Part shown: positions 29,063 to 30,508 of the stretch, piece after piece
Layout of the letters: every line of letters starts with the position of its first letter
Numbering within the stretch: position 1 is the first letter of the stretch
Assembly (NCBI GenBank): GCA_024709685.1
Contig: JANJWF010000130.1
Location: forward strand, 1 to 36,237
Direction of reading: 5' to 3'
DNA from: Thiobacillus sp.
Lineage (GTDB): Bacteria > Pseudomonadota > Gammaproteobacteria > Burkholderiales > Thiobacillaceae
DNA: 36,237 nucleotides
The notes under the pieces: generated by a model
Told to the model about the DNA's origin: nothing
Seen by the model: only the letters and a program-made list of their open reading frames with translations
Database searches by the model: none
Made by a program: the position numbers and the translations under genes

Positions 29063-29716
29063 TTATTTCGCCGGCTTGACGGTGGTCAGCCCCAGCACTT
29101 CCCAGTCCTGCATGCCGCCGCGGTACCACTTGATCTTGTCTGCGGGGTAGCCGATTTTCAGCAGACCCTTGATATTGGTGGGGGACTGGCCGCACCACGG
29201 ACCGTTACAGAACATGACGATGGTCTTGGCATTGTCGAACATGTTGAAACCGTCCTGGTTCTTGACGCCGAAATGTTTTTCAAGGAGTTCCTGAACGGTG
29301 ATGGGATCGGATTTGCCGATGTTGAGCTTGTCCCACGGAATGTTGATCGCGCCCGGGATGGTGCCTTTCTCGACCCAATCGGGGGTGCGCGAGTCGACGA
29401 CCATGATGTTCTTGTCGCCATCGCTCATCTTCTTCAGGTAATGAAGCACTTCCAGTTCCGAGATGGTTTCCACTCCGGGGGCCAGTTCGCCCGGCTGAAT
29501 GCAGAAGGGCGGGCACTTGCGCGAGGTCTTGACGAAGTCAGGATTGATCGTGTTTTTTTCATCCTGGTTGCGCATGATCGTGACTTTCTTGCCACCATGC
29601 ATGACTTCGACAGAGGGCAGATCAGCGGTGAGGTTGACATCCAGTGCACTGGCCGTCATCGGCAGGACGAGGGAGGTGAACAGTACAGATGCAGTGAACA
29701 GGGTGCGAAGCTTCAT
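29063..29716 (-). CDS. Secreted rhodanese-domain protein with extra CPPFC motif
   Basis: 217 residues from the ATG at 29716, eight bases after AGGAG; an in-frame ATG further upstream lacks a site and would bury the signal peptide. The signal sequence MKLRTLFTASVLFTSLVLP ends near ASA-LD (residues 24-25), so the protein is periplasmic. The rhodanese domain covers about 84-210, with VVDSR at 106-110 and active-site Cys170 in FCNGPWCGQSP; Cys175 lies in the same loop. A separate N-terminal motif KTSRKCPPFCIQP puts Cys68 and Cys72 close together. Rhodaneses carry sulfane sulfur as a persulfide, so a periplasmic sulfur-transfer or redox role is inferred. It follows a small secreted protein gene. 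Confidence 0.9.
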   Translation of the reverse strand: MKLRTLFTASVLFTSLVLPMTASALDVNLTADLPSVEVMHGGKKVTIMRNQDEKNTINPDFVKTSRKCPPFCIQPGELAPGVETISELEVLHYLKKMSDGDKNIMVVDSRTPDWVEKGTIPGAINIPWDKLNIGKSDPITVQELLEKHFGVKNQDGFNMFDNAKTIVMFCNGPWCGQSPTNIKGLLKIGYPADKIKWYRGGMQDWEVLGLTTVKPAK

Positions 29717-29754: not shown

Positions 29755-29970
29755 CTAATTGCAGTTCGGTTCTTCGTTGCTTGTGCTGCTTTCAGACGAC
29801 TTCTTGCTGGCGGCTTCCTCCTTCGGCGTTGGATTGGATGGGTGCTCCTGAGCGTTTGTCGCTTCGGGTTTGGCAGACTGGGCTTCGGCATTGTCTGCAC
29901 CCACCGCATTGACAGAAATCAGCACGAGCACGGCTGCCATCATGGATGGCAGTCTGGATATCCTGGTCAT
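29755..29970 (-). CDS. Small secreted protein with a C-terminal Cys-Asn, unknown function
   Basis: 71 residues. A signal peptide (TRISRLPSMMAAVLVLISV, cleavage near VGA-DN at 24-26) is followed by about 45 residues rich in Ser, Ala, Glu, Asn, Pro and Lys. This part is probably disordered and ends EEPNCN, with the only cysteine of the protein. AGGAG lies 11 bases before the ATG. It is the first gene after a sigma-54-type promoter and is followed 38 bases later by the rhodanese gene. I do not recognise the family. One idea is that the terminal cysteine is a partner or sulfur acceptor for the rhodanese, which is speculation. Confidence 0.7.
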   Translation of the reverse strand: MTRISRLPSMMAAVLVLISVNAVGADNAEAQSAKPEATNAQEHPSNPTPKEEAASKKSSESSTSNEEPNCN

Positions 29971-30057
29971 TGAATATGAATCTCCTATTTAAGATATCAA
30001 TATACGCCGGTTTCTTTCCCGGTCGACGGGAGGCTTTTGGCGCCCGCACCTTACTCA

Positions 30058-30072
30058 GCACGTTGTGTGCCA
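30058..30072 (-). promoter_or_regulatory. Sigma-54 (-24/-12) promoter of the small protein-rhodanese operon
   Basis: Read on the minus strand from 30072, the sequence is TGGCACACAACGTGC, preceded by T and followed by T. The RpoN consensus is YTGGCACR, four bases, TTGCW; only one position differs, and the essential GG-10 bases-GC spacing is exact. The expected start near 30047 gives a leader of about 75 bases. Confidence 0.72.
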
Positions 30073-30078
30073 ACCATA

Positions 30079-30091
30079 TAAGTCTATGATA
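30079..30091 (-). promoter_or_regulatory. IHF-like binding site
   Basis: On the minus strand TATCATAGACTTA matches the IHF consensus WATCAA, four bases, TTR with one mismatch. It sits in an AT-rich patch between the sigma-54 promoter and the TGTCA repeats, the usual place for an IHF site that bends DNA toward a bound activator. Confidence 0.5.
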
Positions 30092-30126
30092 TAGAAGAAT
30101 AAAAAGATCTGCCCCGTCAGCCCGGC

Positions 30127-30166
30127 TGACAAGAATGTCATATGGATTTGTCATGATGTCATGACA
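30127..30166. promoter_or_regulatory. Pair of TGTCA inverted repeats, likely activator (enhancer) sites
   Basis: Site 1 is TGACA-AGAA-TGTCA at 30127-30140. Site 2 is TGTCATGA-TG-TCATGACA at 30149-30166, a perfect 8-bp inverted repeat that also contains TGTCATGA twice in tandem. They lie about 80-120 bases upstream of the predicted sigma-54 transcription start, the usual distance for enhancer-binding proteins. The activator is unknown and not encoded in the window. Confidence 0.6.
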
Positions 30167-30508
30167 TCCTTTCGGCTTGCCGCCGAGCCTGATGGCGTCT
30201 CTGTGGCACGCCGCGCGTCGTTTTCCTCCTGGACCGTCACAGCTGGCCACGCCCAAGGCGGCTGGCACGTCCGCGCGCGCTTTCGTGCGTCAATCCATCA
30301 CATTCCGAATCGCGGATACGCGCCGCTTTAGAAACGCGGAATTGTTCCGTTATGCAAGCGCCACGAACGCTTTGTGTGGACCGGCAACGCTTCGCGCAGC
30401 GATTTCCCGGTTGGTCAGGAGCGATGCCAACACATTTCATCTCGTGTGCGTGGCGCAAGAAAAAAAGCTTAAGGCATGACTCAAGATGCGTGCATCAGCG
30501 CCGTTAGC

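Follow-up and report, generated by a model that had tools for sequence, protein, structure and literature searches.

The window, i.e., the whole 36,237-nucleotide stretch analysed here (contig C79 of a Thiobacillus sp. genome of 2.55 Mb, 79% complete), carries two neighbouring genes on its minus strand, a small exported protein gene followed by a rhodanese gene, preceded by an array of putative control elements (Table 1). The signal peptide of the small protein was assigned by eye, and the closest named relatives of the rhodanese are mostly Thiobacillus records. A mechanical 158-aa GTG open reading frame in another frame (29792-30268, minus strand) overlaps the small gene as well as the control region and could mislead automatic annotation.

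Table 1. Features of the small protein/rhodanese locus and the candidate activator gene. Positions refer to the window unless a contig is named.
Feature	Position	Strand	Remarks
Single-domain rhodanese gene	29063..29716	-	217 aa; signal-peptide-like start; PF00581
Small exported protein gene	29755..29970	-	71 aa (from translation); signal-peptide-like start, low-complexity tail, C-terminal EEPNCN
Inferred leader	29971..30046	-	Predicted start ~30046, 12 nt past the -12 C; from promoter position
-24/-12 promoter TGGCACACAACGTGC	30058..30072	-	10/11 consensus positions, including the following T
IHF-like site TATCATAGACTTA	30079..30091	-	Putative; differs from the IHF consensus at one position
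Upstream activator site 2, TGACATTCTTGTCA	30127..30140	-	TGAC and GTCA halves conserved across 19 aligned upstream regions
Upstream activator site 1, TGTCATGACATCATGACA palindrome	30149..30166	-	Proposed FisR-type activator binding site; conserved in Thiobacillus
fisR-like activator gene	G000:C132:5898-7202		Divergent from sqr; PAS, sigma-54 AAA+, Fis HTH (PF08448, PF00158, PF02954)

The original prediction described four elements in front of the gene pair: TGTCA repeats, an IHF-like site, a -24/-12 promoter with one mismatch, and a leader with its own hairpin. The first three are present. TGTCA/TGACA elements lie on the minus strand at 30162-30166, 30157-30161, 30149-30153, 30136-30140, and 30127-30131. 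The sigma-54 promoter consensus is TGGCAC-N5-TTGCW, in which GG and GC are kept; read down from 30072, the string TGGCAC-ACAAC-GTGCT matches TGGCAC in full, leaves both GG and GC intact, and departs from TTGCW at one position (G for T). The usual convention relative to the -12 C places the predicted start near 30046, and the palindromes are centred near -112 and -88 relative to it. The fourth element did not hold up. Of 200 shuffles, 23 folded at least as stably as the leader hairpin (minimum free energy -20.6 kcal/mol, z -1.2), and relatives do not conserve the leader; the hairpin was therefore dropped as a regulatory element. As judged by comparison with related loci, the control region is real and conserved, the hairpin excepted.

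Searches for further operator copies and for an NtrC-family activator tied to sulfur or nitrogen metabolism, both suggested along with the original prediction, led to the same intergenic region. The whole genome contains exact TGTCATGACA twice: in this promoter, and at C132:5854-5863, between sqr and a divergently oriented fisR-like activator gene. The backward control decamer occurs once; it is therefore the location of the two copies, not their number, that matters. The sqr product is a relative of solved SQRs such as 3sz0 (E 1.2e-163), and the divergent arrangement links the activator to sulfide oxidation. With a PAS domain, a sigma-54 AAA+ domain, and a Fis helix-turn-helix, the activator has the domain make-up of the FisR type. 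Its cysteines C49, C60, and C67 lie 11 and 7 residues apart, a predicted sensor arrangement with the same spacing as Cys53/Cys64 of Cupriavidus pinatubonensis FisR, whose third cysteine we take to be C71. The pattern C-x10-C-x6-C is present in 29/29 activator proteins read, where the frame was picked by a C-x2-[VILA]SH motif and the first cysteine was thus partly preselected. The genome also holds an rpoN gene (Sigma54_DBD). The conserved elements, the rpoN gene, and a sulfide-linked activator with the same site support the proposal that the periplasmic sulfur pair would respond to a signal through a sigma-54 promoter and an upstream activator site. A FisR-type sensor and sulfide-derived sulfane sulfur are strong candidates, and the likely ones, for the activator and the signal of this promoter.

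Close orthologues of the activator (at least 62% identity) were found in 23 of the remaining 35 genomes of the genus and in a single genome from outside it, which gives a set of 25 (24 from Thiobacillus, including the genome studied here, and one from another genus). All 25 carry at least two TCATGAC/GTCATGA elements within ~130 bp upstream, and a divergent SQR-type N-terminus was read beside 25/25 when GTG/TTG-type starts were allowed and beside 16/25 with ATG only. Among five distant homologues (L135-L139, 43-51% identity), TCATGAC elements were found in 0/5 and an SQR-type gene in 0/5. Three of the five (L137, L138, and L139) are PAS-cysteine sigma-54 activators, 43-47% identical, that have divergent -24/-12 sites without TCATGAC and without a divergent SQR-type gene; these activators probably govern a separate regulon with its own operator.

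In other genera, the sensor gene is linked to the gene pair itself. At five Sulfuricellaceae-type loci (L054, L055, L056, L058, and L059), sqr and the fisR-like gene point away from each other, sqr is followed by the small gene and the rhodanese gene, and 3-4 strict elements are present at each. At L060, the fisR-like gene and the small gene/rhodanese pair diverge, and a perfect TGGCACGGTGATTGCT precedes the small gene; the rhodanese gene of L070 has fisR-like and sqr neighbours. Strict TCATGAC is absent upstream of the sensor at L060 and L070, which have one looser form each. The strict sensor regular expression matched 7/52 rhodanese loci and none of the Thiobacillus loci among the 52, the sensor being located elsewhere in those genomes. 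In a second, class-wide sample, the sensor lies no more than 2 kb from the rhodanese gene in four of six loci, the six being all those of 28 with -24/-12-like sites, and an SQR-type gene is also nearby in two of the six. At L212, one of three loci of this sample with both TCATGAC and -24/-12, no sensor was found within the 12.9 kb examined. A tree of 46 proteins, in which long branches leave the deeper order unsure, grouped the activator with those of L054-L060 (32 rows, 100/99); L135 falls inside this group on a long branch, and L070 stands one step outside it (33 rows, 97/94).

The distribution of the two genes bears on whether some other enhancer-binding protein, such as a two-component or nitrogen regulator, activates a genuine sigma-54 promoter here, with TGTCATGACA near sqr serving another factor. 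Ten strong Sigma54_activat matches in the same genome provide possible alternatives, and genome G023 (81% complete) has the rhodanese while no close sensor orthologue was found in it. Across the 36 genus genomes, both genes are present in 14, the rhodanese alone in one, the sensor without a close rhodanese in ten, and neither in 11 (Fisher p 0.005, with genomes treated without correction for relatedness); in the 20 genomes at least 90% complete, the corresponding counts are 10, 0, 5, and 5. The exact decamer is common only to this promoter and the fisR-like activator's own region, its elements accompany all 25 close sensor orthologues, and in other genera the fisR-like gene lies near the pair. 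We therefore regard activation by a different protein as unlikely.

Comparison of the upstream regions of orthologous operons, likewise suggested with the original prediction, found the -24/-12 and TGTCA elements kept in relatives. We defined a composite as a -24/-12 site with at least 9/11 matches and TCATGAC or GTCATGA 20-130 bp upstream, and searched 23 Thiobacillus-type rhodanese upstream regions (the window, L034-L052, L007, L016, and L018). The composite was present in 19/23 regions compared with 8/6900 shuffles, a figure that holds per sequence and not as 19 independent cases, as the regions are related by descent. The four regions missing the strict composite comprise L044 and L047, with degenerate sites by eye; L048, where part of the region is gone; and L018, which is without promoter and small gene. 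L018 (genome G015), a Thiobacillus rhodanese locus, shares with the window a nearby inorganic pyrophosphatase-like gene, and its genome contains the sensor. In an alignment of 19 regions, with L048 excluded from the column means, the majority frequency averages 0.81 over the palindrome, 0.70 over the second pair, 0.82 over the -24/-12 site, and 0.74 over the IHF-like site, compared with 0.51 for the spacer, 0.45 for the leader, and 0.42 further upstream. The -24/-12 site keeps GGCA and TGC in every one of these regions; in the IHF-like site, TCA is invariant and the terminal TA stands at 0.9.

This conservation also weighs on two readings that dispense with sigma-54. Under the first, a dimeric regulator of an ordinary kind would occupy the TGTCATGACA palindromes, and a sigma-70 promoter would resemble a -24/-12 site by coincidence. 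The palindromes have a size that suits many regulators, and the minus strand contains two sigma-70-like matches at 29973-30026, but these are near the chance level (0.8 expected, sd 0.9) and sit in a poorly conserved leader, so a sigma-70 promoter there was dropped. The invariance of GGCA and TGC argues further against this reading, as does the recurrence of the same elements near a -24/-12 site facing the divergent sqr in 23/25 close relatives of the activator; we judge it decidedly improbable. The second reading, that a sigma-54-like string arose by chance in a large intergenic region, can point to two-mismatch -24/-12-like strings elsewhere in these upstream regions, but deserves hardly any credence given the excess over shuffles and the column conservation.

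A genus-wide search for TCATGAC followed by -24/-12 matched 42/56 genomes, and the backward control 2/56. Matches were classified for the genome studied here, where they comprise the promoter described here, that of sqr, and a single site preceding an IS110-like transposase gene; in other genomes, some recur before the IS110-like element or may lie in coding sequence. The third site (G000:C40:682-748, TCATGAC plus TGGCAC-N6-TGC) was dropped as a further regulon member, since it lies ahead of a transposase gene that looks IS110-like and the same string turns up in several other genomes of the genus; it is probably unrelated to the regulon. In all 19 rhodanese promoters with the composite, the -12 element deviates from TTGC at its first base. 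The promoter may thus be weak, and the departure suggests that the rhodanese operon would have a weaker promoter than sqr.

The rhodanese matches PF00581 (E 4.7e-14), and its structural model (mean pLDDT 81) has a rhodanese fold, with 1uar as the best Foldseek hit (E 1.1e-5); by sequence, no solved-structure relative was found at E 0.01. Four cysteines (C68, C72, C170, and C175) are invariant in 34 aligned rhodanese sequences, within the motifs CPPFC and CNG-x-WC. The domain, the fold, and the invariant C170 of the catalytic loop place the protein in the rhodanese superfamily, with putative activity. Its loop reads CNGPWC and has a second cysteine at its end, a form from which classical rhodanese loops differ. 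At E 1e-50, the rhodanese was found in 80/369 genomes of the class, including that studied here. At L056 and L070, a second open reading frame directly follows the rhodanese gene (L056:6687-7379 and L070:6675-7367); its N-terminal part resembles a rhodanese copy and has a lipoprotein-like start.

The small protein varies in sequence and length, and its constant part is the tail E-P-x-C-[D/N/E/S] or close forms. This conserved cysteine tail is a new finding that goes beyond the original prediction. An upstream open reading frame with such a tail precedes 42/50 rhodanese genes; the tail expression was composed after inspection of these first 50 loci, and controls gave 69/5000 for Markov-generated sequences, 0/50 for reverse-complemented stretches, and 0/47 for downstream stretches. 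The 50 loci consist of 46 of the 52 rhodanese loci together with L007, L016, L018, and the window; six loci with missing 5' ends or weak matches (L053, L057, L062, L083, L084, and L085) were left out of this count. No such frame was found upstream at eight of the 50 (L018, L061, L068, L069, L071, L073, L074, and L077). The second sample, drawn from the best-scoring loci of the class search, contained the frame in 15/28; it comprised 29 loci, of which L201 gave no motif. L181 of that sample is the same sequence as L062, and the counted sets do not overlap by a test that required 97% identity across >800 bases. The small protein/rhodanese pair is widespread in the Gammaproteobacteria (GTDB sense). 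By eye, the small proteins of L070, L078, and L082 have a lipoprotein-signal-like N-terminus.

No NCBIfam match to the small protein was found at E 0.01, including any recognisable homology to the described sulfur carrier families SoxY, DsrC, and TusA, so that likeness to a carrier is functional only. SoxY and DsrC, folded domains whose arms are short, carry sulfur on a cysteine that lies at a flexible C-terminus or close to it. The cysteine of the small protein is similarly near the C-terminus, but the protein seems to consist of a signal peptide and a low-complexity tail only. A flexible tail with a cysteine, next to a sulfurtransferase, suggests a protein that accepts or carries sulfur, and the small protein may be a disordered, cysteine-tailed carrier of the periplasm. 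A fuller version of this idea, which we put forward tentatively and consider possible rather than probable, is a new type of periplasmic carrier: a disordered exported or lipid-anchored tether, with its cysteine no more than two residues from the C-terminus, that would be loaded by the four-cysteine rhodanese under a sulfide-sensor switch, its tail being the route by which the rhodanese would move sulfane sulfur between the products of SQR and the oxidation machinery.

Returning to control by a FisR-type sulfane-sulfur sensor acting on the sigma-54 promoter, we consider it probable that such a sensor activates this promoter and that sqr, the sensor, and the small protein/rhodanese pair form one small regulon. 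The TGTCATGACA site common to both regions, the elements retained by orthologues, and the linkage in other genera indicate that the pair is most likely switched on together with sqr by sulfide-derived sulfane sulfur. Sulfide entering the cell would be oxidised by SQR to polysulfide or persulfide and this product, wherever in the cell it may appear, would react with the PAS-domain cysteines C49, C60, and C67 of the sensor, turning its AAA+ domain into an active ATPase. The activator, bound at the TGTCATGACA repeats ~90-110 bp upstream, would then open the sigma-54 promoter through a DNA bend at the IHF-like site. The same regulator would act at the divergent fisR-like/sqr region and so drive sqr too. 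The exported rhodanese would handle sulfane sulfur outside the cytoplasm, with the cysteine-tailed small protein probably its acceptor or carrier.

Several parts of this model have counterparts in described systems. Cupriavidus FisR reacts with sulfane sulfur to form a tetrasulfide between Cys53 and Cys64, 11 residues apart (PMC9495516), and such bridges are described in a review as allowing FisR to activate transcription through higher ATPase activity (PMC12170894). Sigma-54-dependent control of sulfide-oxidizing genes by FisR is known from both Cupriavidus and Acinetobacter (PMC7315123, PMC9495516, PMC12170894). C. pinatubonensis FisR thus resembles the present activator in its sigma-54 dependence, its tie to sulfide-oxidizing genes, and its cysteine spacing; in contrast, its targets, as these sources describe them, are the sulfide-oxidizing genes and not an exported small protein/rhodanese pair. 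Acinetobacter baumannii FisR is likewise a sigma-54 activator, divergent from a sulfide-inducible operon with a predicted sigma-54 promoter, but according to the authors it is without regulatory cysteines, and the operon as described encodes SQR, PDO, TauE, and a homoserine dehydrogenase and no exported rhodanese (PMC7315123). Sensing chemistry therefore varies inside the FisR-named family. The FisR-like relative in Cupriavidus metallidurans, 43% identical to the present activator and placed in the neighbouring group of the tree, stands beside SQR-like and PDO-like genes; the TGTCATGA site is absent across 9.3 kb of this region, which was dropped as a carrier of the same operator.

Chemolithotrophs of the genus Acidithiobacillus offer two further comparisons. 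P21 of Acidithiobacillus ferrooxidans is, by its description, a similar exported rhodanese-like protein that is induced there by sulfur compounds (PMC6335251); the passages on P21 mention neither sigma-54 control nor a cysteine-tailed partner, and recombinant P21 is cited there as having no rhodanese activity (Ramirez et al. 2002, via PMC6335251). TspS/TspR also exerts sigma-54-dependent control over sulfur oxidation genes, but is described as a two-component system beside sox genes (PMC6335251), whereas the present activator is a predicted one-component PAS cysteine sensor. A sigma-54 two-component system is also described at a thiocyanate operon (PMC5744179). Passages of PMC11582611 and PMC2754497 contained nothing on a FisR-like sensor, and among titles and abstract openings of mostly non-subscription literature we found no report of an exported rhodanese with a cysteine-tailed partner under a FisR-type sensor.

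To our knowledge, both sulfide sensing and the movement of periplasmic sulfane sulfur are poorly understood in obligate sulfur oxidizers such as Thiobacillus. If the proposed model is true, it yields a small regulon whose operator is defined and whose sensor has a name, and FisR-type control would widen from sulfide detoxification to a chemolithotroph living on sulfur. The undescribed cysteine-tailed protein would also become a carrier candidate that is testable with one purified pair. In a separate setting, at L173 (Pseudoalteromonas xiamenensis), a related PAS-cysteine sigma-54 activator adjoins cytochrome bd oxidase genes, and sensors of this type may control a sulfide-tolerant oxidase there.
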